37,204 nt of DNA from a virus (IMGVR_UViG_3300043331_001671:1-37204), one strand, 5' to 3'. Positions 2,977-34,322 are shown, counted from the stretch's first letter. Made by a program: numbers and translations. Notes: a model not told the origin generated them from the letters alone.

Positions 2977-3038
2977 GCCCACTGTCAACAGACCGGGGAT
3001 GGGCTACGATTCCCACCCTCCAGGCCGCAGTATACCAT

Positions 3039-3065
3039 CTTTACACCTTTACACCAGGTGTAAAG
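3039..3065. promoter_or_regulatory. Operator-like element: CTTTACACC in three copies
   Basis: CTTTACACC occurs at 3039-3047 and again at 3047-3055 (8-bp step). It occurs inverted as GGTGTAAAG at 3057-3065, giving a perfect 9-bp inverted repeat with a 1-nt centre. This is a typical binding site for a dimeric regulator. No other copy was noticed in the window, and the protein that binds it is unknown. Confidence 0.5.
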
Positions 3066-3321
3066 CCCGCCCAGCGCCAGGCCACGTCATGCAGACACCT
3101 GGCGCACGGACACCGCCGTCACCACGAGTGACAGGGTGGGGGCAGGCATACGCCTTACCATTGTGTAACGTGCTGTTTTTGTGGCTTTTGTCGCTTACAG
3201 TTGGGTATACTTTTCGGGTATGCTACTCTGGTGGCTGCCGGGTTGGGAGTCATGACCCCTGCGCTGGCAGCCTACACTGCCGGGACCCGGTATCCACTCA
3301 ACACCGTGTAGGAGGTGTTTC

Positions 3322-3657
3322 GTGCCCAGTTTCGATACGCATTCCACGTTTCAAAACCTGCAATCCCATGGCTTTTCCTCGGACCAGGCCGAGGGCATTA
3401 CCGCTGCGTTCGTGGCCTTCCTCGATGCCACCGGGCAGACCATGGCGACGAAAGCCGATCTCACGACGCTCCGCTATGACCTGACCACCACGATGGACGG
3501 GCGCTTTACACAGGTCGATACGCACCTTGCCGCCGTGCGCCATGATATTGGGCGGCTGGCGGTCCACCTCCGGTGGCTGATGGCCGGGATGGGGCTGGCC
3601 GCCGTCTGCAGCCTGGCGGTCCTGATTCTCCTGATAGTCGCCCTGGCGCGCTACTAA
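3322..3657 (+). CDS. DUF1640-like coiled-coil protein with C-terminal membrane anchor
   Basis: 111 aa with a GTG start 5 nt after AGGAGGT. The N-terminus (FDTHSTFQNLQSHGFSSDQA, EGITAAFVAF) and ATKADLTTLRYDL match the pattern of bacterial DUF1640/CCDC90-like proteins: FDTHKF-x-LxxxGFxxxQAE, then a coiled coil. Residues ~86-108 (LMAGMGLAAVCSLAVLILLI) are a transmembrane helix, so the coiled coil projects from the membrane. The role of these proteins in phages is unknown; a lysis or membrane-remodelling role is possible but only a guess. It stands alone on the plus strand, convergent with and overlapping the leftward gene at 3654-3893 by 4 bp. Confidence 0.7.
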   Translation: MPSFDTHSTFQNLQSHGFSSDQAEGITAAFVAFLDATGQTMATKADLTTLRYDLTTTMDGRFTQVDTHLAAVRHDIGRLAVHLRWLMAGMGLAAVCSLAVLILLIVALARY

Positions 3658-3893
3658 GTATGCTTCCTGGCCCTCCCGGCCCTGCCGTCCAGCCCGCACC
3701 ACGTGAGTCGCCCGGCCTGCGCCGCAAACACCGCAATGCCGCCCGGGTCGTCTCTGCGGTGCCCGCTGCAGCCGCAACAGCGCCCACACAGGAGCTGGGC
3801 GGGGCTGGCGGTGGCCGTACAGAGGACGTCCAGGTGCTGGCGCTCGGTGCAGGCGTCGCAGACGAAGAACTGAGGCATCTCCCGCAGACTCAT
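3654..3893 (-). CDS. Small Cys-rich (zinc-ribbon-like) protein
   Basis: 79 aa. I place the start at the ATG at 3893, which overlaps the stop of the upstream gene (ATGA). Residues from ~8 contain FVCDACTERQ, then LLCGRCCGC, i.e. two C-x2-C knuckles suited to one zinc ion. The C-terminal part is basic. No family recognised. It is the last gene of the leftward late block and ends convergent with the gene at 3322-3657. Confidence 0.5.
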   Translation of the reverse strand: MSLREMPQFFVCDACTERQHLDVLCTATASPAQLLCGRCCGCSGHRRDDPGGIAVFAAQAGRLTWCGLDGRAGRARKHT

Positions 3894-4093
3894 AAGACCT
3901 CCGCGATCAAGATGGCCAGTTCGTCCAGATGCTCCCAACAGAGCCGCAGCACGCCGCCGCCGTGCGTGCCCGCCCGGTGATCGCCCCACTCATACAGGAT
4001 CACGTACAGCGCCTCGTGCGGCTCCAGGCGATCGCTGGGGCACACCATGCAGAGCTGGGCATAGCCGCCTGCTTCCACACCAACCGCGAGCAT
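3890..4093 (-). CDS. Small hypothetical protein
   Basis: 67 aa. The ATG at 4093 overlaps the stop of the upstream gene (TAATG), and its own stop overlaps the next start. It contains YAQLCMVCPSDR and LRLCWEHLDELAILIAEVL, so C-x2-C plus a later CWEH could bind metal. It belongs to a run of four small coupled genes downstream of the tail fiber. No known family. Confidence 0.55.
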   Translation of the reverse strand: MLAVGVEAGGYAQLCMVCPSDRLEPHEALYVILYEWGDHRAGTHGGGVLRLCWEHLDELAILIAEVL

Positions 4094-4710
4094 TAGCGTC
4101 CCTTTCCAGGCTGTCCGACCAGTTCGAGGCAGCTCAGGCTACACGACACCGGCACACTCGACACCACCACGCCCGAGGCCATCAGCACATGCTCGGCCAG
4201 GCACTGCGACCCATCGCGGGTATACAGCCGCAGCACGACCGTGTCGCGGATGGTGGCGCAGCGCGTCGCGCCCCACACAATGCGCGACTGCAGGTACTTC
4301 GTCGGCGGCTCGGCCTGGGCATAGGCGACACCGGGGCGCTGGCTGTGGCGTGTGCCCGCCGTCGGATAGGCAATCCAGGTATACGTCGTGCGCTCTGGCG
4401 TCTCGTAGCGCAGCAGGGCGTCACCCGAGGGACAGAGCGTCACCCCCACCACCGTGCCGTGGGGGCCATCGACCGAGTACACCGGCTTGGCTTCCAGGCA
4501 GTCGAGGTTGCGCTGCCACAGGCGTTGTTGCTCCTCGGCATAATGGACCTTGGCGTAATTGACATCGAGCCGCCAGGATTTATAGGCTTGCCAGACCGTC
4601 GGGATGGCGCCGCCAATGGTGGTCAGGAGCGCCGGATACAGCAGCAGCGCTTGCCAGACCTTGAGCCCGGCAATCGTCGTGGAGGGTGGGCGCTCTCCCG
4701 CCTCAGTCAT
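4093..4710 (-). CDS. Hypothetical membrane-anchored protein
   Basis: 205 aa with an N-terminal hydrophobic segment (about residues 17-40, VWQALLLYPALLTTIGGAIP) followed by a basic residue cluster, then an external domain of ~160 residues rich in beta strands, with several Cys (C70, C92 region, CATI, CLAEH, SCSLSCLE). This suggests a single-pass protein with its main domain in the periplasm. Its position just after the fiber genes is where lysis genes (holin, spanin) often lie, but I see no specific holin, spanin or lysozyme signature. Translation is coupled to its neighbours by TAATG. Confidence 0.55.
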   Translation of the reverse strand: MTEAGERPPSTTIAGLKVWQALLLYPALLTTIGGAIPTVWQAYKSWRLDVNYAKVHYAEEQQRLWQRNLDCLEAKPVYSVDGPHGTVVGVTLCPSGDALLRYETPERTTYTWIAYPTAGTRHSQRPGVAYAQAEPPTKYLQSRIVWGATRCATIRDTVVLRLYTRDGSQCLAEHVLMASGVVVSSVPVSCSLSCLELVGQPGKGR

Positions 4711-4713
4711 GGC

Positions 4714-4872
4714 TCAGGCCGCCTGCCGATCCGTCGGGATGCCGTGCAGCGCGTGGACACAACAGGCCGTACACAGACAGGCGCCGACCGGCCACAGGCA
4801 GCCCGCCGGGAGCACCTCGCAGACGTCGGCGCCGCGCAAAAACTGGCGACACCAGAGGCAAAAGAGCCGCAT
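4714..4872 (-). CDS. Very small Cys-rich protein
   Basis: 52 aa, too short for many gene callers. It starts MRLFCLWCRQFLRGADVCEV and continues with ACLCTACCVHALHG, giving eight Cys in C-x2-C-type pairs. An AGGGAG-like SD lies 7 nt upstream of the ATG at 4872, and its end is 3 bp from the next gene's start. It is probably a zinc-binding peptide of the late block. The overlap-free fit between its neighbours supports it, but it has no recognised family. Confidence 0.5.
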   Translation of the reverse strand: MRLFCLWCRQFLRGADVCEVLPAGCLWPVGACLCTACCVHALHGIPTDRQAA

Positions 4873-4882
4873 GGCAGGCTCC

Positions 4883-5140
4883 CTATACGACTAATTCAAA
4901 AAGGTTAGTAGCGTGCCCTGCAGCAATGAACCCGTTGATCGCCTCGATGCTCGCCACCGCCGCGGTCAGCTCCGCCACGGTGAGATCGGCGTTGGCGCCG
5001 GCGAAATCTTCCTCCGTCAAGGTGGTGCCGAGGTCTAAAGCGTCCCATTGGCGTCGCGCCGCCATCAAGGCGTCGAGGGCATGCAGAAATGTCGTTACGT
5101 CGGCTCTGTAACGACTGATAAAGTCGGGGTTTGATGCCAA
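4883..5140 (-). CDS. Small conserved-type protein next to the tail fiber
   Basis: 85 aa, mostly helical: N-terminal FISRYRADVTTFLHALDALM, then LGTTLTEEDFAGANADLT and AAVASIEAINGFIA. Small proteins with an LTxxDF motif followed by 'NxDLT' and a helix are common immediately after phage tail-fiber genes. Their function is not established. An A-rich leader (GAAAGGAAAC) precedes the ATG at 5140, in a locally AT-rich stretch. Confidence 0.6.
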   Translation of the reverse strand: MASNPDFISRYRADVTTFLHALDALMAARRQWDALDLGTTLTEEDFAGANADLTVAELTAAVASIEAINGFIAAGHATNLFELVV

Positions 5141-5164
5141 AATTTGTTTCCTTTCAATATCTCT

Positions 5165-7114
5165 CTAAGCTCCCAGCCCAAACGTAATCAGCGCCGTACG
5201 AAGCGCGTTGGCCAATGCCTGCGTTGTCGTGGCGTCGGTCGCGGCGCTAGGGAGGGTGATCCGAGCGGCAGCCGAAGCCCCCAGGAACCCGATACGCGGG
5301 GCATTCGAGGCCGTCTCCCCGCGTAACACCTCTCGGGCTGCGGTCGCGTCATAGACGGATACCGTGACCCGTGATTCGCGGGTCGCATCCGTCGACACGG
5401 TAAACGACGGATCGATGAGAGCGATGGGCCGCTCCTGCACCGATGATTGACTAACAAAGAGCTGCGCGCCCTTGACGTTCAAGGGCTTATAGCTGGCGCC
5501 GCTGCCGAGTGTGGCGGTGAGCGGCGTGCCCAGGCCACACAGCCCGCCCCAGGTGATGAGGTTGCCCTGCCCATCGATTTCCAGGCGGGACGCGCTGCTG
5601 GTGGTGCCCGCCAGCGTGGTGTTGAGCGTGATCCGGCTGCCCCGATCCGCCGGCGAGCCCGCATTGACGGCCAGGAAATCGAGCCAGGCCGAGAACTGGG
5701 CGGCAAAGGCGCTGCCATCATGAATCTGGCCGCCGAGGCGCAGCAGCGGGCTGCCGGCCGGCGTGGCGGTGGGCAGGCTCTCGGTCCCCCCCGCATGGCG
5801 CCCGATAATCGTGGGCTGGCGCGTCGTCAGATTGGTATAGACGTGCATCTCATAGACGACATTGTTGCCATCGTCGCGGCGGTGGCGCAGGGTCCCGGCC
5901 TTGAGCAGCAGCTCCCCCTGGACCTGGAGTTGCATGCCGGTCTCGGGGGCGATGCCGACCCCCAGGCGGCCCTCGCTGGTGGTGAGCAGCCCCGGCGTCG
6001 CCTCCGCCGCCGTGCCGCTCACGGCGTAGCGCATCACGCTGAGCGGGGTGCCGGCGGGGACGGTGGCGGCGAGCGCGGCGGCCACGCCCGCGGCATGGGT
6101 GGCACGCGTCGTGTCCGTGCCGGCGGTGGTTTCGGCAGTGGTGGCAAGCTCGACAATCCCTGACACCGTTTCCGAGGCCGCTGGCGGGAGCACGGCGGCG
6201 AGGCGGGTGGCGAGTTTCAGCGGGGTGATGGCTTTGGTGTCGTTCGTCCCGGTGGTCACCTCCGCCTGGGTGGCGAGGCGCACCAGCCCAGACGTCGCTT
6301 CCGAGGCCTCAGGGAGGGCGGGGATGGCGTCAAGACGGGCTTCCAACCCGGCCGGCGTCACCGCCCGTTGCGTATCCGTCCCGGCCACGGCCTCGGCGGT
6401 CGTCGCCAATTCCACCAGGCCGGTGCGCGTTTCCGTCGCCGTGCGCCCGACCAGGCGGCCCGGGGTCACCGCTTTGGTGACGTCCGTGCCGGTCAGCACC
6501 TCCGCCGTCGTGGCGATCTGGATGAGTCCCTTCGTGGTATCCGAGGCGTCCGGCGGCGGATCCGGCAGGACCCCGGCGGCGAGCTTCGCGGCGGTGACCT
6601 GGCCGTCGCCGAGCTTCGGCGTGGTCACCGCGCCATCGGCGAGCTTGGCCGTGGTGACACTGCCGTCTTCCAGCGCGATGGTGCCCGGCGACACCCAGGC
6701 CAACTCTGGCCCGGCATCGAGCACCAGGATCTGCCCCGGGGTCCCGACCGCGGGCAGGAGATGCACCGCCTGCACGCTATGGTCGGCGAGCGGCTCACGC
6801 GGCAGCGGCTGGGGCGGTTGTGGCGCCGGGGCGTCCGGGTCTTCGACCACGCCCACGTACTCATAGGTGTGGCCGCTCCCGTCGTCCGCGTCGAGACGGA
6901 CGAACATCCGGGGGACGGGGTGCGCGATCTGGCCGCGAATATCCGGGATCTGCGGCGGCAGGGCGTCGACGCCCAGCTCGTAGGCCGTTTCCCAGGGCGG
7001 CTCGACGAGTTCCAGGACACAGTCGGCTTCGGTCGCGGCCGCGGCTACCTCGTCGGGATCGGGGATCCAGGTGGTCGCGGTGGCGGCCCGGCGGTAAGGA
7101 TAGGCGAACCACAT
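5165..7114 (-). CDS. Tail fiber / receptor-binding protein
   Basis: 649 aa. Order: residues ~36-96 form an N-terminal domain shared with the 116-aa protein at 17731-18081. A Pro-rich hinge follows (~93-110), then SVTTAKLADGAVTTPKLGDG-type short repeats (152-180). Four Phage_fiber_2 repeats lie at about 191-224, 227-262, 270-306 and 312-345 (core G-L/I-V-x-L-A-T-x-A-E-x3-G-T-D-x2-R/K-A-V-T-P). The C-terminal ~300 residues are beta-rich and presumably receptor-binding. The repeats are typical of side or tip fibers of phages of Gram-negative bacteria. It is the last large gene of the tail module. Confidence 0.9.
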   Translation of the reverse strand: MWFAYPYRRAATATTWIPDPDEVAAAATEADCVLELVEPPWETAYELGVDALPPQIPDIRGQIAHPVPRMFVRLDADDGSGHTYEYVGVVEDPDAPAPQPPQPLPREPLADHSVQAVHLLPAVGTPGQILVLDAGPELAWVSPGTIALEDGSVTTAKLADGAVTTPKLGDGQVTAAKLAAGVLPDPPPDASDTTKGLIQIATTAEVLTGTDVTKAVTPGRLVGRTATETRTGLVELATTAEAVAGTDTQRAVTPAGLEARLDAIPALPEASEATSGLVRLATQAEVTTGTNDTKAITPLKLATRLAAVLPPAASETVSGIVELATTAETTAGTDTTRATHAAGVAAALAATVPAGTPLSVMRYAVSGTAAEATPGLLTTSEGRLGVGIAPETGMQLQVQGELLLKAGTLRHRRDDGNNVVYEMHVYTNLTTRQPTIIGRHAGGTESLPTATPAGSPLLRLGGQIHDGSAFAAQFSAWLDFLAVNAGSPADRGSRITLNTTLAGTTSSASRLEIDGQGNLITWGGLCGLGTPLTATLGSGASYKPLNVKGAQLFVSQSSVQERPIALIDPSFTVSTDATRESRVTVSVYDATAAREVLRGETASNAPRIGFLGASAAARITLPSAATDATTTQALANALRTALITFGLGA

Positions 7115-11044: not shown

Positions 11045-12151
11045 CTACACCCCAAGCAGCGGATGGGTCGCCGTCGTCGTCTCCAGCTCGACCACCAGGC
11101 GGCCATCGTCGCGGACCCCGCCGAGCCAGGTCGGCACGCTCGGCGGCGCCAGCACCGTAAAGGCGATCTGCGCCGTCGGCGCCGCCGCGGTCCACGGGCG
11201 CGTCACCGCGTCGAGGTGACACGCCGGCCCCCACAGGCGCAGGACAGTCGGACTGCCCGGCCACGTCGCCCGCAGCTCCAGCGTGTACGGGGTCTGCGCC
11301 CGGATGGCCGCCAGCAGGTCATGCGCCCAGGGCGTATACCACGGGACCGTGAGGCTCCCGGTCACCACCGCCACCCCGGTACAGCTCGGCTCGGCCAGGA
11401 GCAGGCCGGAGGACAGCGACTGCTCCAGCCGCCACGGGCGCTGGCACTGGAGCGTCACCTGCATGATGTCGATCTCGTCCGTGGCACCCGGCGGCGTCGT
11501 CGCGCTCAGGGGCCCAAAACGGCACACCAGGTCCACGTCAGCCAGGTCGGGCGCCACCGGCGGCGGCAGGGCGGTCAGCGTCGCCCAGGTGTTGACCGGC
11601 GTGGCAGTCTCCAGCGTGGCGCCGACGGCCGCCACCTGCAGGCGGACACTGTCCGGCTGGGCGGTGAGTTGCCAGCCCGTCAGCATGCCGGACTGCACTT
11701 CGTACACGTCCACCGGACTCCCCAGGACGAGGGTCAGGCGCCGCAGCAGCAGGCTCGTGGCGATCCCGTCTGCCGCTGGCCACGGCATGGCCCGGAGCTG
11801 GTTGACCAGTTCCAGACGATGCCGCCAGACGCCACTGCCCAGCGCCACGGGATAGGTCGTCCCGGCGAGCACCCGTGGCGCATACCCCAGGGCACACGCC
11901 AGCAGGGACTCTTGCCCGAGGGCGGTGAGCGGCGCGGTCACCTGGCAGGCGGCGGTCTGTGCCACCGCGTCCACGGTCAGCGTGCCACTCATGCCGCCAA
12001 AGACTTCGCGCGCCGCAAAGCGGTCCATCGGCTCGACCGTGGCGCTGGTGAAGGCGAGCAGAGACGTGAGCGCCGCGGCCGGGGTCGGCCAGGTGGGCAC
12101 GGTGATCGGGCCTTCGAGGGCCACGCCATGATGGGTCAAAAAGCCGCTCAC
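11045..12151 (-). CDS. Tail tube-like / tail terminator-region protein
   Basis: 368 aa, beta-rich. The central TGSLTVPWYTPWAHDLLAAI, preceded by an IDIMQVTLQCQRPW strand, is reminiscent of phage tail tube proteins, which often have a T-G-S-F-T-V-P strand. Its N-terminus (FLTHHGVALEGPITVPTWPT) is short and polar. It could be a second tube-type or tail-tip ring protein between the tape measure and the hub, because the main tube candidate lies at 19072-20079. It is the first tail gene left of the rightward cassette, so in the late transcript it would follow the tape measure gene across 2.5 kb of antisense DNA. Confidence 0.5.
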   Translation of the reverse strand: MSGFLTHHGVALEGPITVPTWPTPAAALTSLLAFTSATVEPMDRFAAREVFGGMSGTLTVDAVAQTAACQVTAPLTALGQESLLACALGYAPRVLAGTTYPVALGSGVWRHRLELVNQLRAMPWPAADGIATSLLLRRLTLVLGSPVDVYEVQSGMLTGWQLTAQPDSVRLQVAAVGATLETATPVNTWATLTALPPPVAPDLADVDLVCRFGPLSATTPPGATDEIDIMQVTLQCQRPWRLEQSLSSGLLLAEPSCTGVAVVTGSLTVPWYTPWAHDLLAAIRAQTPYTLELRATWPGSPTVLRLWGPACHLDAVTRPWTAAAPTAQIAFTVLAPPSVPTWLGGVRDDGRLVVELETTTATHPLLGV

Positions 12152-12183
12152 CCGATTTTTCCCTCCGTCAGTCTCAAGTTTTT

Positions 12184-12212
12184 TTGTGGCCTGTCGATAC
12201 GTCCATTAGGTA
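12184..12212 (+). promoter_or_regulatory. Candidate promoter of the exported-protein cassette
   Basis: TTGTGG (12184-12189), a 17-bp spacer and TAGGTA (12207-12212) upstream of the RHH gene. The -10 is weak. The inter-operon position and the preceding T-run make a promoter here likely, but the exact boxes are uncertain. Confidence 0.3.
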
Positions 12213-12237
12213 CATTGAGTACACAGGAGGTGCAACG

Positions 12238-12411
12238 ATGGACGAACAGACACGACATACCATCAAAATCAGTACGGAAGCACTCAACGCCTTGCGTATC
12301 CTGGCTGCCTATACGGGCAAACGGCAACATCATCTCGTGGAACAACTCATCATTGCTGCCTTGCAGCGCGCCGAAATGGCACGCACCAAGAAAGGATTCG
12401 AACCATGTTGA
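12238..12411 (+). CDS. Ribbon-helix-helix (CopG/Arc-like) DNA-binding protein
   Basis: 57 aa, start ATG at 12238 with AGGAGG 7 nt upstream. HTIKISTEALNALRILAAYT then GKRQHHLVEQLIIAALQRAE gives one N-terminal strand followed by two helices, the RHH fold of small dimeric repressors. It is the first gene of a rightward cassette inside the leftward tail genes, so it likely regulates that cassette, perhaps its own promoter. Its end overlaps the next gene by 7 bp. Confidence 0.7.
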   Translation: MDEQTRHTIKISTEALNALRILAAYTGKRQHHLVEQLIIAALQRAEMARTKKGFEPC

Positions 12412-12905
12412 AGACCCTGCTCCTCACGGCTCTGCTCACGCTCGCGCCCGCTATTGTCGCGCATGCCGGTCTGTATCAGTGTGTTGATGCCACTGGGCGC
12501 CGTCAGATACAAGATACGCCGTGTACCCAGGAGACCACCGAAACCTTTATGACCCCTGAATCGGGCAGACCACAGGATCCTGTCGTCGCCCCACAAACCC
12601 TTCCCGCTCCGCCGACACGCCAGCCCTCCGCAAGCCTGCCGGCGAGCCGACAATCGGATGGCTTGTGTCAATCGATTGGACAGACCGCCTTTCATACCGC
12701 GATCGCCCGCAATAAGGGTGTCACAGCGACAGAACTGCTGGCCAAAACCGCCAACAGTTTTCAAGACCTTTCTGGGCAGGCCCGCCAGGCCTCTGAAGCG
12801 TATCTGCGCTCCCTCATCCTGCAAGTCTATGCCAACCGCTGGTGGTCGCCGACCGTCGCGCAACAGCGGATTGAAACGCAATGCTTGATCGCCTTCAACA
12901 AATAA
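12405..12905 (+). CDS. Exported DUF4124-domain protein
   Basis: 166 aa with a clear signal peptide (MLKTLLLTALLTLAPAIVAHA, cut after AHA at 21). The mature start LYQCVDATGRRQIQDTPC is a DUF4124 domain (Y-x-C-x-D-xx-G-xxx-D-x-P-C), found in exported proteins of Gram-negative bacteria. The middle is Pro/Ser-rich. The C-terminal half is a helical domain (GQTAFHTAIARNKGVTATEL; RWWSPTVAQQRIETQC). The function of DUF4124 proteins is poorly known. It would act in the periplasm or at the surface, which fits lysogenic conversion or superinfection exclusion; this is inference. Confidence 0.72.
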   Translation: MLKTLLLTALLTLAPAIVAHAGLYQCVDATGRRQIQDTPCTQETTETFMTPESGRPQDPVVAPQTLPAPPTRQPSASLPASRQSDGLCQSIGQTAFHTAIARNKGVTATELLAKTANSFQDLSGQARQASEAYLRSLILQVYANRWWSPTVAQQRIETQCLIAFNK

Positions 12906-12916
12906 AGGCCAGGGAC

Positions 12917-13399
12917 ATGAAACCCTTCACCCTCGTCACCTTCGTCCTCACCTTGCTCGTGTGCATGACGTCGCCGGTGCGTGCCCTCCAGGAATGCACG
13001 CGCGCCCCCATTGGCGCTGGCCCGGCACTCGGCCCCGTCGTCTGTACCGAGGTCCAGAGTGATCGCGGGACCATCATTGCCATACGACAAGCGCATGACA
13101 TCCGTGCCGCGCGCACGGAAGCCTCTCCAGTGCCCACAGAACCGCCCATGGCTCCCCCCGTCGGCTCGATCATCACGATGGATCAGGCGGGGTTCAGTCG
13201 CCGCGGCACCGCGGCCGGCGACCCGCGCCGCTTCTGTGGGGAGGATACGGCCTGCCAGCAGTGGTATATCGATCATACGTATATCGCCCAGGATGGCGCG
13301 GTGCGCCTGAAAACGCCCTATCGGTCGCATCGGTACTGGGATCGTCGTGGCACCGTGACCGGACCAAAACGCGGTGGCGTGTTCGTCAAGGTGCGCTAA
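12917..13399 (+). CDS. Exported protein of unknown function
   Basis: 160 aa from the ATG at 12917, because this start gives a good signal peptide (MKPFTLVTFVLTLLVCMTSP, cut after VRA at 23); an upstream in-frame start would bury it. The mature part has four Cys (ECTRAP, VVCTEV, RFCGEDTACQQWY), probably disulfide-bonded, and ends basic (GTVTGPKRGGVFVKVR). No family recognised. It is the second exported product of the cassette, 11 nt after the DUF4124 gene. Confidence 0.62.
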   Translation: MKPFTLVTFVLTLLVCMTSPVRALQECTRAPIGAGPALGPVVCTEVQSDRGTIIAIRQAHDIRAARTEASPVPTEPPMAPPVGSIITMDQAGFSRRGTAAGDPRRFCGEDTACQQWYIDHTYIAQDGAVRLKTPYRSHRYWDRRGTVTGPKRGGVFVKVR

Positions 13400-13418
13400 C
13401 GTGACAGGAGACCCGTTC

Positions 13419-13592
13419 ATGACCGCCGAACATTGGTTGCTTACCTCGCTCTCGTTCGTCACCCTGCTCTACGTTGCCTGGAGCATGGGCCGCATCCACA
13501 CGGCGTTGCGCGCCATTGCCGCCAGCGCCGAACGCATCGAAACGTCCGCCGAACACATCGCGCAGATGGTGCGCGAGCTACACAACCGCTAA
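13419..13592 (+). CDS. Small single-pass membrane protein with amphipathic helix
   Basis: 57 aa; AGGAG 8 nt before the ATG at 13419. Residues ~6-22 (WLLTSLSFVTLLYVAWS) are a transmembrane helix, followed by a coiled-coil-like amphipathic helix (ALRAIAASAERIETSAEHIA). No known family. It is part of the run of membrane/exported genes and could be a partner subunit of one of them. Confidence 0.55.
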   Translation: MTAEHWLLTSLSFVTLLYVAWSMGRIHTALRAIAASAERIETSAEHIAQMVRELHNR

Positions 13593-13608
13593 CCGAGAAA
13601 GGATCTCT

Positions 13609-13971
13609 ATGGAATGGCTCATTATTTGGATCATGTGCGGCGTCATCAGCGCCGTCGTCGCCGTGCAAAAAGGCCGCAGTGGTCTGGGATGGTTTTTCCT
13701 TGGCGTGCTGTTTGGCCCCCTCGGGTTCATTCTGTCCCTCGTGATGCCCGCGTTAGAAACAGAAGAGGCACGCGACCGCAGAAGACTGGGATTACATCGT
13801 CTCTGTCCCTTCTGTGCCGAAACCATCAAGGCTGCTGCGGTCAAATGCCGCTTTTGTGGCTCAGAGCTCCCTGTGCCCCCTGTCCCGCCCTCGGATGATC
13901 CCTCTGGGAAGGGAGGCGACTGGATCGACCGCCTCCCGCCGGTCACATCACCTCCTCACCCCTCACGCTAA
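13609..13971 (+). CDS. Two-helix membrane protein with C-terminal zinc ribbon
   Basis: 120 aa. Two hydrophobic segments (EWLIIWIMCGVISAVVAV and GLGWFFLGVLFGPLGFILSL), then CPFCAETIKAAAVKCRFCGSEL, a textbook double C-x2-C zinc ribbon of the kind common in bacterial membrane proteins. A Pro-rich tail follows. The ribbon would face the cytoplasm. Such proteins are widespread, mostly of unknown role. An AAAGGA SD is present. Confidence 0.65.
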   Translation: MEWLIIWIMCGVISAVVAVQKGRSGLGWFFLGVLFGPLGFILSLVMPALETEEARDRRRLGLHRLCPFCAETIKAAAVKCRFCGSELPVPPVPPSDDPSGKGGDWIDRLPPVTSPPHPSR

Positions 13972-13988
13972 CACAGAAAGGATACCCC

Positions 13989-14390
13989 ATGCACACCCCT
14001 CGTCTTGTTCTCCTGCTCTGCGGAATATTTGCCCTCGGCTTTCTCTCCGCGCATCTCTGTTCTTCAGTGCTCCGTGGCCCCCTGCCGGCTGCCGTGCCGA
14101 CCGCCGAGGCCCTGTATCACCAAGAAACCATGCTCCAGCGTTGTCAGGAACGCGGCATCCTCGCGGCCAAGATTGCCACCGCTCGGGACCAGGGGATGAC
14201 GCTCGAAGCGGCACAATTCCGCCTTGAGGTCCATGCTGGCTACTATCAAGAGGCCCCCTTACACGCCCTGGGCTTATCCGTCCAGGACACGCACGCCATG
14301 ATCCAGCGTGTCTATACCGCGCCGACCCTTGACGCCACCGCCATACACCAGCTCGAAGCCCGCCTCTGCGCACGACAGACATCTTCCTAA
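13989..14390 (+). CDS. Exported or membrane-anchored helical protein
   Basis: 133 aa with an N-terminal hydrophobic segment (RLVLLLCGIFALGFLSAHLC) that may act as a signal anchor, since no clear cleavage motif follows. The rest is helical: LYHQETMLQRCQERGILAAK, then GMTLEAAQFRLEVHAGYYQ. The pattern suggests a periplasmic helical bundle. SD AAAGGA lies 8 nt upstream. Probably the last well-supported gene of the cassette. Confidence 0.6.
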   Translation: MHTPRLVLLLCGIFALGFLSAHLCSSVLRGPLPAAVPTAEALYHQETMLQRCQERGILAAKIATARDQGMTLEAAQFRLEVHAGYYQEAPLHALGLSVQDTHAMIQRVYTAPTLDATAIHQLEARLCARQTSS

Positions 14391-14392
14391 GC

Positions 14393-14421
14393 CGCCACGC
14401 TCCCGCCACACGGACGTGGCG
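14393..14421 (+). terminator. Weak candidate terminator of the cassette
   Basis: Alternative stems CGCCACG (14393-14399) or CGCCAC (14404-14409) can pair with GTGGCG (14416-14421). There is no U-tract, so it is a poor intrinsic terminator. Another perfect short inverted repeat, CCGTTA/TAACGG at 14641-14657, spans the stop of the opposing tape measure gene. Confidence 0.3.
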
Positions 14422-14452
14422 TCCCTCAGAACCCCTCATAAATCGCCCCAGG

Positions 14453-14602
14453 ATGGCCCAGGTTAGGCGCTCACCGTCTGCCGCGTGTCTTCTCCCCCCA
14501 GGCCTGCGTGCCGCGTTGTCTGACGCTCCACTCGAGCGTCGTTTGCGCCGCGCCAAAGTCCTCGCCCTGCTCGCCCTCAGTCTCTATGCCCTCCTGCGCT
14601 AG
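14453..14602 (+). CDS. Possible small membrane peptide
   Basis: 49 aa (ATG at 14453, TAG at 14600). A basic segment (LERRLRRAK) precedes a hydrophobic C-terminal end (VLALLALSLYALLR), so a tail-anchored peptide is possible. The SD is poor (AGG directly before the ATG) and there is no family. It fills the otherwise empty space between 14390 and the end of the tape measure gene. Low confidence. Confidence 0.3.
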   Translation: MAQVRRSPSAACLLPPGLRAALSDAPLERRLRRAKVLALLALSLYALLR

Positions 14603-26756: not shown

Positions 26757-26786
26757 ACCATACACGAAAAGGCCCGCGCCCGTCAA
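26757..26786 (-). promoter_or_regulatory. Candidate late promoter upstream of the portal gene
   Basis: TTGACG (26786-26781), an 18-bp spacer and TATGGT (26762-26757). The predicted start near 26750 would give a ~135-nt leader containing a perfect hairpin (CCCGACCA/TGGTCGGG, 26715-26738) and then the terminator at 26697-26661, before the portal ATG at 26614. The -35 box overlaps the TerL stop. Confidence 0.45.
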
Positions 26787-28384
26787 CGCCCCGCGAGATA
26801 GCGCCGCAGGGTGTCAGAGGCGGTGGCCCGCGTGCCGCCGTGGCGGATGGACGCGGCATCCAGCGTCACGACGGGCGCAAACGTCATCCCCAGCGCATCG
26901 GCCAGATCCGGCGACTGCACGCCGCGTGCGGCCAGCTCGTCTTTCGACTCGACCACGAGCCGCCCGCTCGAATCCAGATGGCTCTTCGGCGTCGCCAGCT
27001 CGCCGGCGAGGTCTTCCGCCAGGGCTTTCGCACACACGAACACTGGCGCTTCGTCGCGCAACCAGGCCGCCATCTCCAGCCAGAGGTGATCGCGCAGCGT
27101 GCGCCCTTGCGGCTCGCCTTTCTTCCGTGGTGGTGCCGGCAGGGCCACGTTCACCGAGGTGAGCGGCAACTTCGACCAGCCGCGCCGGAGCATGGCGTGT
27201 CGCATCGCCTCAGCCAGGCCCGGCGTATGCGGGGTGATTTCGGCCAGGCGGTCATAGACGCCAGCCCCCATCCCTATCGTATCAATATAGACCTCATCGG
27301 CGTCCCAGTCTACCAACGCCTGCAGGACACAGCCCACCGTCACCATCGTATCCTGGCGGCTGTAGATCCGCGCCTGCTCCACGACCGTGCTCTGCCGCAA
27401 CACGAGCGCCGTACGGTTCGTCCCCATGCGGGCCACGTCCACCCCGAGGCGACGCGGGCCAGTCACCGTCTCAGGTCGCTCACGCGTCAGGGCCGCCTCG
27501 CAGTTCGCGAGCGGGATCAGCGTGTCATCGTCGGCCTCGGGGAACTCGCCGTCCGCACGCACACGTACCACGTTGGAGCCCTCGCCGAACTTGGCCACCA
27601 GGGTCGCGCGGTAGTCGGGGGCACACAGCGGTGAGTCCTGGCTGGCGAAGTGCAGCGGCGTGTAGTGCCCGCGGCGCTGCCGGTGCGAGGCGGCAAAGTA
27701 GCCGGTGGTCCGGGTGGGATTGCCGAGCATGAGGAGCCGTGCCCCCTGGCTGGCCAGGGCGCCTTCTGCCACCTCGAAGATACGATCATCGATGCCACTG
27801 GCCTCATCCACCACGAACAGCAGCGGCGAGGTCGTCTGGTGCGCCAGGCTGGCGCCATCGGCGGCCACGGTGATGGCCGTGGCGTGAAAGCCCTGGAGCG
27901 CTTCGGGCGCTTCCTTCCTGGCTGTCCGGGCCACCGCGAACCATTCGAGCGGGGCGCCGCGGTCATAGACGCGATCCTGCGTGAGTTGAAAGAGGGTCGA
28001 GAGCCACAGACGCTGCGGATCACCGCGCTGCTGGCTCTGCAGGTCGGCAGACCGCCGCCACTTCCCCAGCTCGCCCCACAGGACCTGGCGCAGTTGGGCC
28101 GAGGTCGGCGCGGTGCACGGGATGCGTGCCAGGTCGTGCGTTTCGAGTTGCCACCAGATGATGGCGGCGGCGGCACTGGACTTGCCGATATTGTGACCCG
28201 ACCGCACGCTGACTTTGGCCCCCTCGTGGGCGATCGCTTCCAGGATACGGCGCTGCTGGTGGGTGGGCGTGAGCCCGAGGCGTTGGGTCGCGTAGAGGAC
28301 GGGATCGTCGCGCCAGTAGGTGCGCAGTTCGAGGTAGGCGTCGATGTAGGCGGCGAGCCTACTCGCGGGCAGTGTGCTGGCCAT
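26783..28384 (-). CDS. Terminase large subunit
   Basis: 533 aa from the ATG at 28384. ATPase: SVRSGHNIGKSSAAAA (Walker A-type GHNIGKS at 63-69) and LLFVVDEASG (D193, E194). Nuclease: RRLGVDVARMG (D316), VYIDTIGMG (D368) and SPDLADALG (D493/D496). It therefore carries both the translocating ATPase and the RNase H-like nuclease. The frame is open further upstream, but that part is a shadow of TerS; the chosen start overlaps TerS by 26 bp. Packs DNA into the prohead. Confidence 0.92.
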   Translation of the reverse strand: MASTLPASRLAAYIDAYLELRTYWRDDPVLYATQRLGLTPTHQQRRILEAIAHEGAKVSVRSGHNIGKSSAAAAIIWWQLETHDLARIPCTAPTSAQLRQVLWGELGKWRRSADLQSQQRGDPQRLWLSTLFQLTQDRVYDRGAPLEWFAVARTARKEAPEALQGFHATAITVAADGASLAHQTTSPLLFVVDEASGIDDRIFEVAEGALASQGARLLMLGNPTRTTGYFAASHRQRRGHYTPLHFASQDSPLCAPDYRATLVAKFGEGSNVVRVRADGEFPEADDDTLIPLANCEAALTRERPETVTGPRRLGVDVARMGTNRTALVLRQSTVVEQARIYSRQDTMVTVGCVLQALVDWDADEVYIDTIGMGAGVYDRLAEITPHTPGLAEAMRHAMLRRGWSKLPLTSVNVALPAPPRKKGEPQGRTLRDHLWLEMAAWLRDEAPVFVCAKALAEDLAGELATPKSHLDSSGRLVVESKDELAARGVQSPDLADALGMTFAPVVTLDAASIRHGGTRATASDTLRRYLAGR

Positions 28385-28913
28385 TGGTGGCGGTCTTTCT
28401 GGCCTGGGCCATGAGCCCCATGAGCCCCTGGCCGAGCTGTTCCAGAGCGGCTTTGTCCCCGTAGAGGTCGAGATGCCGGGCCAGTTTGTCCAGGGCGTCC
28501 GTCTTGCTGTGGAGTTTGAACCGGATGCTGCCACCGCCCTGGGTGATGGTCTGTGACACCTCACTCACCACCCGCCGGGCTGCAGCATCGATCTGGGCCG
28601 AATCGCGCAACGTCACGCCGCCTGGTCCCCAGGTCACGTAGGCGTGGAGGTCGCTGAAGCCGATCAGGGCCAGCTCGGCAATGACGCGCTCGGGGGTCAC
28701 GGCGTTGGTGTCGGCGAGCTGGGCGCGGCGTTCCGCGAGAGCCGCTTGCACCTCAGCATTTCTCAGCAATCGCCAGGCGTTGGTCTCTGCAGCATGGCCA
28801 CGGGCCTTGTATCCCGCCGCAATATACGCCGCCGTCGCGTTCTGCTCTTTGTCGGCCAGGAACGCCTCGACAAAGCGTTGATGACGTGGGGTGAGGTTCT
28901 CGTACGCGCGCAT
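28359..28913 (-). CDS. Terminase small subunit (Terminase_2 type)
   Basis: 184 aa. LTPRHQRFVEAFLADKEQNA, then TAAYIAAGYKARG and AWRLLRNAEVQAALAERRA, are the N-terminal DNA-binding pattern of Terminase_2 small subunits (L-T-x-x-Q-x-x-F-V-x-x-Y/F, A-A-x-x-A-G-Y). The C-terminal half (KTDALDKLARHLDLYGDK) fits the oligomerisation part. It recognises packaging sites and positions the large subunit. The ATG at 28913 has no SD but a promoter-like sequence just upstream. Confidence 0.85.
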   Translation of the reverse strand: MRAYENLTPRHQRFVEAFLADKEQNATAAYIAAGYKARGHAAETNAWRLLRNAEVQAALAERRAQLADTNAVTPERVIAELALIGFSDLHAYVTWGPGGVTLRDSAQIDAAARRVVSEVSQTITQGGGSIRFKLHSKTDALDKLARHLDLYGDKAALEQLGQGLMGLMAQARKTATNGQHTARE

Positions 28914-28920
28914 GCCGCCC

Positions 28921-28950
28921 AGCCTAGCACCGCCGGCTGAGCGGCGTCAA
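28921..28950 (-). promoter_or_regulatory. Candidate promoter of the terminase genes
   Basis: TTGACG (28950-28945), an 18-bp spacer and TAGGCT (28926-28921). It shares the -35 and spacing of the candidate promoter before the portal gene. The predicted start lies at or very near the TerS ATG, so a leaderless message is possible. The -10 box matches the consensus only partly. Confidence 0.4.
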
Positions 28951-28970
28951 GCGGCGGCACGCGGCGGCAC

Positions 28971-28980
28971 GGGGGGGGGG
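28971..28980. repeat. G10 homopolymer
   Basis: Ten G in a row between the zinc-finger gene and TerS, next to short GCGGCGG(C/T)AC/TC direct repeats (28941-28970). Homopolymers of this length are prone to slippage and to sequencing error. It is intergenic, about 20 bp upstream of the candidate terminase promoter. Confidence 0.8.
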
Positions 28981-28990
28981 CGCCGGGTGG

Positions 28991-29194
28991 TCAGACTGGG
29001 CGATGCCCATTCGTGACGATGGAGACCACCCACCCCTCGTCGTCGTCCGTTTCCTCGTCAAATGCCGTCCCAAAGTCCCAGAGGTCCAGTGGGTCGCCAC
29101 GCCAATGGTTCAAGCTATGATCAATCCTGAGATGCGCGTCGAAATGTGGGTCGTCATCCAACACCAGCAAACAGTAATCACACTGCCATGCCAT
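28991..29194 (-). CDS. C2H2-type zinc-finger protein
   Basis: 67 aa. CDYCLLVLDDDPHFDAHLRI then DH gives C-x2-C-x12-H-x4-H, a classical zinc finger pattern. The rest is acidic (TAFDEETDDDEG). The SD AAGGAG is well placed before the ATG at 29194. Small single zinc-finger proteins are common in the region upstream of terminase genes. Binding target unknown. Confidence 0.65.
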   Translation of the reverse strand: MAWQCDYCLLVLDDDPHFDAHLRIDHSLNHWRGDPLDLWDFGTAFDEETDDDEGWVVSIVTNGHRPV

Positions 29195-29209
29195 ACGTTC
29201 CTCTCCTTC

Positions 29210-29275
29210 TTACGCCGCGTGCGCGTCGTCGTCGGCCGCCGGGCGGCGCTTTGGCGGGCGGCCGCGGCGAGGCAC
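29210..29275 (-). CDS. Possible AT-hook micropeptide
   Basis: A 21-aa frame with a GTG start whose product begins with PRRGRPPKRRP, a textbook AT-hook (R-G-R-P-x-K), and ends DDDAHAA. Its end overlaps the SD of the next gene. Other frames of the same stretch are Arg/Pro-rich too, so this may be chance in GC-rich DNA. Confidence 0.3.
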   Translation of the reverse strand: MPRRGRPPKRRPAADDDAHAA

Positions 29276-29311
29276 TGGGAGCTCGCATAAGCGTCTGAGT
29301 GGAAGGGCGCG

Positions 29312-29862
29312 TTAAAATAGATTGCCTTGAAAGGTGCCTCGCTCTTCTTCCTGCTCGCACTGCTTCATAAAGTCAGGATAGAAGCGGCGAAAATCCCACC
29401 CATCGTCGGTCTGATCGCCTTTTTTGCTATTGCAGGATTGGCAAAGACATTGTCCATTGTCCCAGGTAGATTTCCCGCCTTTATTGACAGGAATCACATG
29501 ATCGGCGGTTAAGAGCTCCGTCGCCCCACATGACATACATTCTCCAGCCCATGCAATGATTTTGAGCCGCATGTACTCTGGAAAACGCTCGCGTTGACTT
29601 TCCTGCCATTGCAGGCGGGCTTCGAGCTTCGCCAGCTCATCCTGAGCGTCACGATAATCGGTTTGGAGATGCAACAATTGAGCATCGAGGACGAGAATTT
29701 GCGCCTGTTGTGCCTCGATTGTTGCTTCTTTTTCTTGCAGGGTGTCAATAACTGCAGGATGCTCCAACGGCTGTTGGACGACATGTTCAAGTTTTTGGAC
29801 TTTGCTCTGTAAGGCGTGCCTTCAGCTTTGATGGCGTAAAGATAGCCTGCGGTCTTCGGCAT
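29312..29862 (-). pseudogene. HNH endonuclease, apparently frameshifted
   Basis: The 3' part (29312-29767 and upstream to ~29815) encodes a coiled coil (KVQKLEHVVQQPLEHPAVID) and an HNH domain: CMSCGATELLTADHVIPVNK, then NGQCLCQSCNSKKGDQ. That frame has no ATG (only TTG at 29767) and opens after a TGA. The natural start MPKTAGYLYAIKAEG (ATG at 29862) is in another frame, so a -1 shift or indel near 29800-29820 joins them. It may be a sequencing error, a true mutation, or recoding. HNH nucleases next to terminase often help DNA packaging. Confidence 0.6.
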
Positions 29863-29870
29863 GTGTGTTC

Positions 29871-30101
29871 CTACTGTGACGCCAGAATGCTTCTGGCGAG
29901 CTTTAAGGCCATCTGCGAGACGCCACGCTCCCCGCGTTCCCAACGTGAGATCGTATCAGCATGCACTCCCAAGGCTTCAGCGAACGCTTCCTGCGTCATC
30001 CCAAGCTGCTGGCGAATCTGTACGAGTTCTTCTTGTGCTGCGTCCAGATGCGGAACGTTCTTCCGTGGTCGCCCTCGTCCGCGTGGTGCTGTCATGAGCA
30101 T
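29871..30101 (-). CDS. AT-hook + XRE helix-turn-helix regulator
   Basis: 76 aa from the ATG at 30101 (AGGAGG 5 nt upstream). The N-terminus carries RGRGRPRKN, an AT-hook. Then ELVQIRQQLGMTQEAFAEAL and GVHADTISRWERGERGVSQM form a Cro/C1-type HTH. Its promoter (TTGATT-N17-GATAAT) and the shared operator words at 30130-30219 lie directly upstream, so it probably controls its own transcription and that of the divergent operon. It is the first gene of the leftward block and could be its main regulator. Confidence 0.78.
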   Translation of the reverse strand: MLMTAPRGRGRPRKNVPHLDAAQEELVQIRQQLGMTQEAFAEALGVHADTISRWERGERGVSQMALKLARSILASQ

Positions 30102-30112
30102 AGAATCCTCCT

Positions 30113-30122
30113 CACACGTGTG
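30113..30122. promoter_or_regulatory. Palindrome CACACGTGTG
   Basis: Perfect 10-bp palindrome overlapping the predicted transcription start of the AT-hook/XRE gene, just before its SD. Likely a regulator site or a transcript-end structure. Confidence 0.4.
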
Positions 30123-30129
30123 TACCATA

Positions 30130-30158
30130 ATTATCGGCAATAGGTCGGAAGTAATCAA
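30130..30158 (-). promoter_or_regulatory. Leftward promoter TTGATT-N17-GATAAT
   Basis: -35 TTGATT (30158-30153), 17-bp spacer, -10 GATAAT (30135-30130), predicted start near 30123 and SD 30112-30107. The word CCTATTGCCGATAAT covers the -10 box and is a close inverted copy of the word at 30205-30219. Confidence 0.65.
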
Positions 30159-30170
30159 GAAAAAAATATG

Positions 30171-30219
30171 CCAATGGCGGTATTTTACCCTTTACTTTTC
30201 TCTGCCAATGGCCGATAAT
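30171..30219 (+). promoter_or_regulatory. Rightward promoter TTTACT-N17-GATAAT with operator words
   Basis: -35 TTTACT (30191-30196), 17-bp spacer, -10 GATAAT (30214-30219). Operator-like CCAATGGCCGATAAT (30205-30219) covers the -10 box; a third copy, CCAATGGCGGTATTT (30171-30185), lies upstream of the -35. Drives the 30268-32890 operon. Confidence 0.65.
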
Positions 30220-30267
30220 ATAAGCATGACGCGGCGATGGTCGCCGCCGACAGAGGAGACACGACGG

Positions 30268-30543
30268 ATGGATGAGACGTTTTTTCAGGCGTGGGCGCAG
30301 GAGCTGCGCGCCTTCCATCAGGATACGGTGGCGCGGCTGGCGGCGCATGAGGAGCAGATGCAGGAGATGCGGGCCGAGCGGCAGGTGTGGATGCAGACGC
30401 ACGCGCGGCAGATGGCTGGCTTGCAGGCCATCATGGACCGATTGGCCGCCGGGGTGATCGACCACCAAGGCCGGATCAGCCAGAACGAACGGACGTTCGA
30501 GGCCTTGACGACCACGTTGCAGGCGATCAACGCGAAACTGTAA
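30268..30543 (+). CDS. Coiled-coil protein, first gene of the hairpin operon
   Basis: 91 aa, ATG at 30268 with GAGGAG 8 nt upstream. Almost entirely helical with heptads and Gln/Met/Arg-rich helices (LRAFHQDTVARLAAHEEQMQ; MQTHARQMAGLQAIMDRLA; HQGRISQNERTFEALTTTL). No enzyme motif. Divergent from the AT-hook/XRE gene; its product may form a multimer or be a DNA- or protein-binding accessory factor. Confidence 0.65.
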   Translation: MDETFFQAWAQELRAFHQDTVARLAAHEEQMQEMRAERQVWMQTHARQMAGLQAIMDRLAAGVIDHQGRISQNERTFEALTTTLQAINAKL

Positions 30544-30552
30544 GACAACAAC

Positions 30553-30591
30553 GCCCTCCCGGATGGAACCGCCAAGCTCTGCCGGGAGGGC
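30553..30591 (+). other. Intergenic hairpin 1
   Basis: GCCCTCCCGG (30553-30562) and CCGGGAGGGC (30582-30591): perfect 10-bp stem, 19-nt loop, no U-tract; 35 nt before the start of the SWIM gene. Confidence 0.6.
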
Positions 30592-30626
30592 ATCAAGTAA
30601 CCTCCACGTGGAGTGAAAGGATACCA

Positions 30627-31220
30627 ATGTCTACGATACCACAAATCTACACCGCTGACCACACGATTGCTTTTGATCACGCCCTGCGCGACGCCCGCAC
30701 GCAGCTCCCCCGCACCGCCGACCCGGCGCGGGCGGATCGCGGGCTGGTGCTGGCCTTGAACGGGCATGTGACGCTGGAGAGCCCCCGCGTGGCGCACGTG
30801 ACCAGCGAGAAGGATCCCGAGGTGGTCTATCACGTGTCCAGATGGGCCTGTGACTGCCCGGACAGTCAGCGCCGCCTGGCGCAGCGCACGGACGACACGA
30901 CGCCGCTCGGGCACTATTGGTGTAAACATCAGTACAGTGTGGCGCTGATGGGCCTGGCACACGTGAATCTGGTGCTCAAGGGCTACGTGCCCGCGGCGGC
31001 TGAGGTGTGGTATCCCGCCGTCAGTCTGGAGGAGTGGGCGTATGGCGTGGGCGGCTGGGCGGTGGAGCAGAAAGGCGGCGCCTGGTGGTTCGAGCCGCGC
31101 GAGGGGCGCCCCGGCTGGTATACGGACAGCACGATGCTGGAATTGTGGGACAAGCGGCCGTGTCACGAGACGCACTGGCACGGCGAGGTGAGCCGGTGGG
31201 AACAATGGCTGAAAGGGTGA
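30627..31220 (+). CDS. SWIM zinc-finger protein
   Basis: 197 aa from the ATG at 30627 (AAAGG SD). RWACDCPD (C75-x-C77) and GHYWCKH (C99-x-H101) form the SWIM pattern C-x-C-x(n)-C-x-H. The N-terminus is polar with one beta-rich strand (VLALNGHVTLES). The C-terminal half is Trp-rich (EEWAYGVGGWAVEQKGGAWW; RWEQWLKG). SWIM fingers bind DNA or proteins and occur in recombination and transposase factors. The function here is unknown. It follows the coiled-coil gene after a 30553-30591 hairpin. Confidence 0.7.
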   Translation: MSTIPQIYTADHTIAFDHALRDARTQLPRTADPARADRGLVLALNGHVTLESPRVAHVTSEKDPEVVYHVSRWACDCPDSQRRLAQRTDDTTPLGHYWCKHQYSVALMGLAHVNLVLKGYVPAAAEVWYPAVSLEEWAYGVGGWAVEQKGGAWWFEPREGRPGWYTDSTMLELWDKRPCHETHWHGEVSRWEQWLKG

Positions 31221-31254
31221 CAGGACGTAACGGTGAGTGACAGCACGCAACGTT

Positions 31255-31281
31255 GGAGCCGCACGGAACCGGGGCGGCTCC
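31255..31281 (+). other. Intergenic hairpin 2
   Basis: GGAGCCGC (31255-31262) pairs with GCGGCTCC (31274-31281), 11-nt loop, upstream of the gene starting at 31338. Confidence 0.55.
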
Positions 31282-31337
31282 CCGAACACGCAAGACCTGG
31301 TGAGTTGTTTGGCTCATCGTTGGAGGAGAGGCGACGT

Positions 31338-31718
31338 ATGACCGAGATGACCCTGACCCATGCCCAGCCCGCCGCCGTCCCGGCCGCCGTGCCGCCGGCC
31401 GAGTTCCCGCTGAGCACGCTGTGCCTGAAGGTGAAGGTGGGCGATGTCGAGATGAGTTGGACCCTCAGAGGCGACGACAGCGACGTGGCGCGCCGCCTGC
31501 CGCGGGCGCTGGCGACGATCAAGAAGTTGCAGGAGGACGGGAAAATCCCCCAGGCCGCCAGGCCGGAGCCCCAGCCGCCGTTAGAGGAGCGGGCCGACTG
31601 GTGCCCCATCCATCAGGTGGCGATGATCCGCCAAGAAAACGACCGCGGCGCCTGGTGGAGCCACCGGGTGCCCGAAGGCGGCTATTGCAAAGGGAAGCGC
31701 CGGAAGGCCGGCGCGTAA
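31338..31718 (+). CDS. Zinc-binding hypothetical protein
   Basis: 126 aa from the ATG at 31338 with GGAGGAG ~9 nt upstream; a GTG at 31233 would add 35 residues but crosses hairpin 2, so I prefer the ATG. N-terminus Ala/Pro-rich, then LCLKVKVGDVEMSWTLRGDD (strands) and a helix RRLPRALATIKKLQ. C-terminal DWCPIHQVAMIRQENDRGAW and GGYCKGKRRK give C-x2-H and C, a zinc-ribbon-like end. The strand-helix plus zinc tail may form a nucleic-acid-binding module. Family unknown. Confidence 0.6.
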   Translation: MTEMTLTHAQPAAVPAAVPPAEFPLSTLCLKVKVGDVEMSWTLRGDDSDVARRLPRALATIKKLQEDGKIPQAARPEPQPPLEERADWCPIHQVAMIRQENDRGAWWSHRVPEGGYCKGKRRKAGA

Positions 31719-31727
31719 CGACGACAC

Positions 31728-31745
31728 GGGGGCCGCAGGGCTCCC
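31728..31745 (+). other. Intergenic hairpin 3
   Basis: GGGGGCC (31728-31734) pairs with GGCTCCC (31739-31745) around the 4-nt loop GCAG (one G-U pair). The SD AGAGGAG starts at the next base. Confidence 0.6.
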
Positions 31746-31758
31746 AGAGGAGCTGACG

Positions 31759-31944
31759 ATGACCTATCCCGGTCTCACCAACGAGCATAGACGGCGGGAG
31801 ATCGCCCGGCATCTGCGGATGCTGCGGCGGCTGGAGCGGCAGCCGACGACGCTGCCCGGCGTCCTGGCCTCGGCGTGCCGCCAGGCGTATCGGCACGAAC
31901 AGCGGGGCGCCCGCGACCTGTTGCGCCTGCTCTACGGCGCGTAA
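31759..31944 (+). CDS. Small basic helical protein
   Basis: 61 aa, GAGGAG SD. HRRREIARHLRMLRRLERQP then HEQRGARDLLRLLYGA, two Arg-rich amphipathic helices. No family recognised. The gene lies between two hairpin-SD leaders and so belongs to the same operon logic as its neighbours. Confidence 0.5.
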   Translation: MTYPGLTNEHRRREIARHLRMLRRLERQPTTLPGVLASACRQAYRHEQRGARDLLRLLYGA

Positions 31945-31953
31945 CGACGCGAC

Positions 31954-31970
31954 GGGGGCCACGTGCCCCC
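31954..31970 (+). other. Intergenic hairpin 4
   Basis: GGGGGC (31954-31959), loop CACGT, GCCCCC (31965-31970), then AGAGGAG SD. Starts 10 bp after the stop of the previous gene. Confidence 0.6.
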
Positions 31971-31983
31971 AGAGGAGACACCC

Positions 31984-32262
31984 ATGCAATGCCCTATACA
32001 CCACCGTTACTACGACTATGAAGACTGTTGCCCTCGCTGTGCCGACGAGGCGATCGAGCCCGCGCCCTGGCGCCACAGCCTGGTCGTGGATTTGAGCGCG
32101 CACACCCTCACCTGGCACCTGGAGCGCTTCCGCGCGCTTATCGAGGGCGAGGCGCAGCGCCTGGCGCGCGAGGACGGCATCACGCTGCACGCGGACGTGA
32201 CCGCGATGGTGCTGACCACCCTGGACGTGCTGAGTACGGCCACGCACGCCCGGCAGCACTAA
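31984..32262 (+). CDS. Small zinc-binding protein
   Basis: 92 aa from the ATG at 31984. MQCPIHHRYYDYEDCCPRCA carries C-x2-H ... CC-x2-C, a possible zinc ribbon at the N-terminus. The remainder is helical (LERFRALIEGEAQRLARE, VTAMVLTTLDVLSTA). No family recognised. It is preceded by hairpin 4 and followed by hairpin 5. Confidence 0.6.
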   Translation: MQCPIHHRYYDYEDCCPRCADEAIEPAPWRHSLVVDLSAHTLTWHLERFRALIEGEAQRLAREDGITLHADVTAMVLTTLDVLSTATHARQH

Positions 32263-32271
32263 CACCGACAC

Positions 32272-34317: not shown

Positions 34318-34322
34318 CAGCC

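Follow-up and report, generated by a model that had tools for sequence, protein, structure and literature searches.

The window analysed here is the whole of a single virus record (IMGVR_UViG_3300043331_001671; 37,204 bp) from a temperate siphophage, which encodes an integrase, a tape measure and Mu-type portal and head genes, and whose late genes run leftward. Six antisense genes on the + strand (12238-14390) separate the tape-measure gene from the next tail gene. The cassette, its regulatory sequences and its borders are as follows:

11045-12151, - strand, leftward tail gene; left border, with its start codon abutting the cassette
12173-12237, + strand, regulatory region, beginning 22 bp past the start codon of this tail gene
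12238-12411, + strand, RHH (Arc/CopG-like) regulator, 57 aa
12405-12905, + strand, DUF4124 exported protein, with a signal peptide, DUF4124, a proline-rich linker and a C-terminal helical domain related to phrog_2315
12917-13399, + strand, second exported protein, four Cys in the mature part, without a family
13419-13592, + strand, TM-coil protein, 57 aa, one TM helix and an amphipathic C terminus (last residues IAQMVRELHNR); a conserved slot
13609-13971, + strand, 2TM-zinc-ribbon protein, 120 aa, with a CxxC...CxxC zinc ribbon (CPFCAETIKAAAVKCRFCGS)
13989-14390, + strand, signal-anchored all-helical protein, related to the C-terminal domain of the DUF4124 protein
14390-14427, + strand, hairpin directly after the last stop codon
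14651-17734, - strand, tape-measure gene; right border, with its 3' end facing the cassette

The sequence-only reading had named these six genes, and all of them prove to be real: they lie on the + strand with stop codons and ribosome-binding sites, and each has its best codon-usage score in the assigned frame when the phage's own late genes serve as reference. Three of its details change. The RHH gene, placed at a TTG at 12184, starts at ATG 12238. The second exported protein, described as exported and Cys-rich, is indeed exported, but Cys-rich only to a modest degree (four Cys after the signal peptide), and its start is ATG 12917. A further ORF counted as the last member (14453-14602, 49 aa) was dropped, as it has no well-spaced SD, the opposite strand scores slightly better and the relatives have no counterpart; the cassette ends at 14390. 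The tape measure is identified by matches to PHROG tape-measure families (best E 2.6e-24). The tail gene at 11045-12151 was assigned from its ORF and its place in the late operon, following the tape measure, and a PHROG profile search with it gave no match.

The cassette differs from its surroundings in base composition. Its GC3 is 0.685, compared with 0.70-0.89 in the late genes, and its regional GC is 0.61 compared with 0.72 and 0.68 in the two neighbour genes, which suggests a different origin. Late-gene junctions tend to be of a TAG-GGAG type; cassette stops are mostly TAA, and CGCTAAC...AAAGGA is found at several cassette junctions.

Hydropathy supports the proposed envelope location of all members but the RHH protein. 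The statement that most members belong to no known family was too strong, as we find matches to DUF4124, to phrog_2315 (two genes) and to phrog_8436 and a UPF0547-like ribbon, none of them with a known function. The DUF4124 protein belongs to PF13511 (29.2 bits, gathering cutoff 22), and its residues 80-156 match phrog_2315 (E 0.0012). The last gene product also matches phrog_2315 (E 0.0085) and aligns with the C terminus of the DUF4124 protein (shuffle p about 0.01). Because of these weak family matches and the mutual alignment, the C-terminal half of the DUF4124 protein and the last gene product are probably paralogous domains. A structure model of the last gene product is helical at low confidence (pLDDT 63), and that of the second exported protein (pLDDT 40) is unusable. 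The RHH protein has a weak match to a PHROG Arc-like repressor (E 0.044), and its counterpart in the related phage L002, described below, exceeds the Pfam Arc cutoff. The zinc-ribbon protein matches phrog_8436 (E 5.9e-25). Its ribbon and that of the L002 protein score 28.3 and 28.5 bits, respectively, with the UPF0547 zinc ribbon (PF10571), just under the cutoff of 29, with all four Cys present; in Pfam, the 2TM part of neither protein matches PF14373 (Imm_superinfect). Known anti-phage defence systems in PADLOC-DB gave no match to the cassette, only two sub-significant zinc-ribbon matches (E 0.03-0.04). The DUF4124, helical and second exported proteins have no match in phage records, cassette DNA has none in plasmids, viral contigs gave no relatives with the DUF4124 protein and the downstream tail gene as queries, and a literature search on DUF4124 in prophages found nothing relevant.

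Related cassettes occupy the same site in other phages. Collections were searched with exact back-translated patterns, and absence from their results carries little weight. A zinc-ribbon search of viral contigs returned a single close relative, L002 (64% identical over the full length; its contig is G001), in which RHH, TM-coil, zinc-ribbon and DUF2846-like lipoprotein genes lie antisense between a tail gene and the tape measure. This tail gene reads as DUF2460-type in sequence and carries the PHROG name 'glycoside hydrolase'. L076, recovered by searching for TM-coil, combines RHH and TM-coil genes with those of another exported protein and the L002-type lipoprotein, at the identical site and in identical orientation; RHH and 22-mer scans of viral contigs found L076 alone again. 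L090 has the lipoprotein at the equivalent place, and its contig ends inside the cassette. No truly empty site was found, the contigs of L090 and L062 ending before the site can be judged. A TM-coil search in 99 genomes of the phylum of a bacterial metagenome-assembled genome (MAG) with a zinc-ribbon homologue found none and is uninformative, host and phylum having been guessed. The gene set was expected to be conserved as a unit, but the three cassettes have only the RHH and TM-coil slots in common; the zinc ribbon is present in two, and the exported cargo differs. The RHH/TM-coil set is known from only two independent phage backbones; the recurrence of RHH, TM-coil and zinc-ribbon genes at one site and in one orientation, where the tail genes themselves are unrelated, is more than would be expected by chance.

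Comparison of L076 and G001 revealed that the cassettes have been exchanged. The two are sister phages with 84-91% DNA identity on both cassette flanks. Their similarity runs to L076 7773/G001 3710 and resumes at L076 8556/G001 4501, which is the lipoprotein start codon, and the intervening 780-790 bp have sharp edges and are unrelated except at the TM-coil 3' end (54 bp). DNA similarity between the window and L076 starts at 12173, just past the tail-gene start codon, and extends over the promoter region, RHH and TM-coil; the part similar to G001 consists of the end of TM-coil, the zinc ribbon and the junction that follows. In addition, the signal-peptide DNA of the second exported protein (window 12916-12959) aligns with the leader of the L002 lipoprotein (L002 4501-4544; 44 bp, 82%, E 1e-6), which suggests that cargo has been swapped behind a common leader. 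Blastp finds no match between the window tape measure and those of L002 or L076, and the window and L002 proteins match different PHROG tape-measure families. Differences at the three codon positions are 5/5/20 for TM-coil (window and L076), 12/6/24 for the lipoprotein, 32/27/58 for the zinc ribbon and 17/12/31 for RHH, and their concentration in third positions indicates purifying selection on the cassette proteins. Because the flanks of L076 and L002 are 84-91% identical while their cassettes are almost unrelated, and because the window shares parts with both despite dissimilar tape measures, the comparison identifies the locus as a horizontally exchanged moron cassette with constant regulator and TM-coil slots and variable exported cargo. 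It has two of the properties of a moron, namely extra genes between otherwise shared genes and a base composition unlike its surroundings. The suggestion of a lysogenic-conversion or moron-type module is supported by exchange at one site, the lower GC3, the envelope proteins and the presence of one member in known or likely superinfection-exclusion slots elsewhere.

The regulatory region has been exchanged with its regulator. A 22-mer (TGTGGCCTGTCGATACGTCCAT) at 12185-12206 is identical at 22 of 22 positions in L076 and is followed by GTACATTGAGTAC and the SD AGGAGG, and the RHH proteins encoded below it are 63% identical. Judging from these alignments, this RHH type travels between phages along with its upstream region. 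We found no sigma-70 consensus promoter in the window or in L076. The L002 RHH gene has a promoter-like site (ATGTCA, 18 bp, TATAAT), and four ATGTC/GACAT half-sites (L002:3711-3747) overlay its -35 to -10 region and probably form an RHH operator. The position of the half-sites over the promoter, together with an RHH protein above the Arc cutoff, would fit autoregulation. The hairpin at 14390-14427 (-17 kcal/mol, z -3.0, no U-tract) possibly marks the end of the cassette transcript.

We located homologues of the zinc-ribbon protein near the tail genes of several other phages. The homologue of the Salmonella phage FSL SP-016 has the tail assembly chaperone genes on one side and the tape measure on the other, a position equivalent to the gp15 slot of HK97. 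In the Microcystis phage Mae-JY04 a homologue and a small exported protein are encoded antisense beside the tape measure; the two-gene cassette (L081:5001-5659) lies at the tape-measure 5' end, and its exported protein is phrog_914. Lambdavirus PDP110P1 and two Klebsiella records have a homologue in or beside apparent tail or baseplate genes. Most other viral zinc-ribbon loci inspected lie away from tape measures, and the bacterial MAG contains a lone homologue on a short contig that shows no tail genes. By its placement in these genomes, the zinc-ribbon protein is a recurrent tail-region moron. Two viral contigs (L007 and L013) contain a PF14373 superinfection immunity domain (T4 Imm-type) fused to a UPF0547 zinc ribbon, and a third such fusion (L028) is probable from its sequence only.

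The Mae-JY04 pair resembles the window in that 2TM-zinc-ribbon and exported genes lie antisense to tail genes next to a tape measure; it differs in having two genes only, at the 5' end, without RHH or TM-coil. The fusions in L007 and L013 share with the window protein the order of two hydrophobic segments and then a zinc ribbon, but the 2TM part of the window protein does not match PF14373. Among the cassette members, the zinc-ribbon family would seem to point most clearly to exclusion. Given the homologue in the HK97 gp15 slot, this family (phrog_8436, function not known) becomes an exclusion candidate.

Exclusion at DNA injection has precedents. HK97 gp15 and Ltp are reported to prevent this step (PMC10883804); the target of Ltp is the tape measure, according to the title of a work cited as ref. 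B3 in PMC3952083, and the SNIPE nuclease likewise associates with tape measures (PMC13190303). Like the TM-coil protein, HK97 gp15 is a small one-TM protein with a helical C terminus, encoded beside the tape-measure gene. It is, however, a single late-strand gene, located 5' of the tape measure and followed by an annotated putative terminator, whereas the window has six antisense genes with their own regulator at the tape-measure 3' end. The cassette shares with the gp15 family its adjacency to the tape measure, whose 3' end it abuts, but in antisense orientation. TM-coil was rejected as a homologue of HK97 gp15, since there is no local alignment, the global shuffle p is 0.07, and only length and topology are alike. 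Ltp of Streptococcus phage TP-J34 is an envelope protein of a prophage and stops DNA injection, its target being the tape measure, going by the title quoted in PMC3952083; it differs from the proteins described here in being a Gram-positive surface lipoprotein, encoded in the lysogeny module and of unrelated sequence family. P22 SieA, an inner-membrane exclusion protein of a temperate phage (PMC10883804), has three TM segments, acts against podovirus ejection proteins and is comparable by description only.

We propose an RHH-controlled prophage envelope operon, for which superinfection exclusion at genome injection of incoming siphophages is the most likely function, with roughly an even chance of being right. 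In the lysogen a promoter belonging to the cassette (at about 12173-12237) would drive its transcription, with the RHH protein regulating its own synthesis and that of the other members. TM-coil, the 2TM-zinc-ribbon protein and the helical anchor protein are predicted to enter the inner membrane, and the DUF4124 and second exported proteins the periplasm. Together they would most likely hinder superinfecting siphophages at genome injection, which the incoming tape measure drives. The same TM-coil/RHH type is paired with unrelated tape measures, so that no allele-level match to the tape measure is visible. The lack of TM-coil/gp15 similarity, of a PADLOC match and of a consensus promoter in the window count against exclusion.

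The main rival to exclusion is lysogenic conversion by a moron operon to the benefit of the host, for example in envelope stress, metal handling or surface properties, and we consider it a serious if less probable explanation. The evidence for exchange applies to it equally. The cassettes contain DUF4124 and DUF2846-like matches, both of them to envelope families that are general among bacteria; with its likeness to general envelope proteins, the exported cargo (DUF4124, phrog_2315, DUF2846-type lipoprotein) is equally compatible with host fitness. The lone zinc-ribbon gene in the bacterial MAG, on a short contig with no tail genes in sight, also agrees with a benefit to the host. What speaks against it is that the zinc-ribbon gene turns up repeatedly at moron sites by the tape measure or in the tail region, among them the HK97 gp15 slot.

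It is highly improbable that the cassette serves prophage addiction, with RHH and TM-coil as a small toxin-antitoxin pair and the other genes as passengers. RHH proteins are common antitoxins, and the two genes are adjacent and overlap in L002 and L076, but in the window two exported genes separate them, and the RHH proteins are minimal (51-59 aa), without a long toxin-binding tail. A lysis cassette, with a small TM protein as holin and TM-coil and a lipoprotein as spanins, is scarcely probable. Small TM proteins are present, the relatives encode lipoproteins, and no endolysin is recognisable among the scanned proteins of this effectively complete phage, including the regions 3000-5165 and 28900-37204; this phage may lyse its host with genes of a type not yet described. 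The cassette itself, however, contains no endolysin-like gene and no endolysin, holin or spanin domain in Pfam, PHROGs or NCBIfam, has its own regulator, and is antisense to the late operon. The TM-coil proteins (43-57 aa) have almost no room for spanning the periplasm, the positive charges after the TM helix place their C terminus in the cytoplasm, and sister phages differ wholly in content. Many spurious ORFs arise in GC-rich DNA, but chance ORFs antisense to tail genes are refuted by conservation, with homologous proteins, SDs, frame-specific codon usage and third-position-biased divergence.

Superinfection-exclusion genes are mostly known as single small genes. If exclusion is the function, a bolder and rather unlikely extension is that the cassette represents a multi-gene, regulator-controlled exclusion island, in which effectors would be swapped at shared junction and signal-peptide sequences and whose antisense position would make it self-cancelling. 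Were this true, the island would be on while the late genes are silent and be turned off through late antisense transcription, leaving the phage's own burst unimpeded. A cassette of several genes under its own regulator, with some slots fixed and others exchangeable and a set site beside the tape measure, may allow many more such systems to be found by position rather than by sequence.

Elsewhere in the genome, the terminase large subunit (26783-28564) shares 80% DNA identity with G001, and the major head proteins of the two phages are only 27% identical. This is strong mosaicism between the window phage and the L002 phage, which are likely to share a host. The window ends (1-120 and 37125-37204) both lie in one 42-bp tandem array with a 79-bp overlap, and this array is in-frame coding sequence (repeat DGHYAPEAVTHRPS) of an HTH-type gene. 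Because the ends overlap within a single in-frame array, the record, although classed as linear, is probably a complete genome of about 37.1 kb, circularly permuted or circular.
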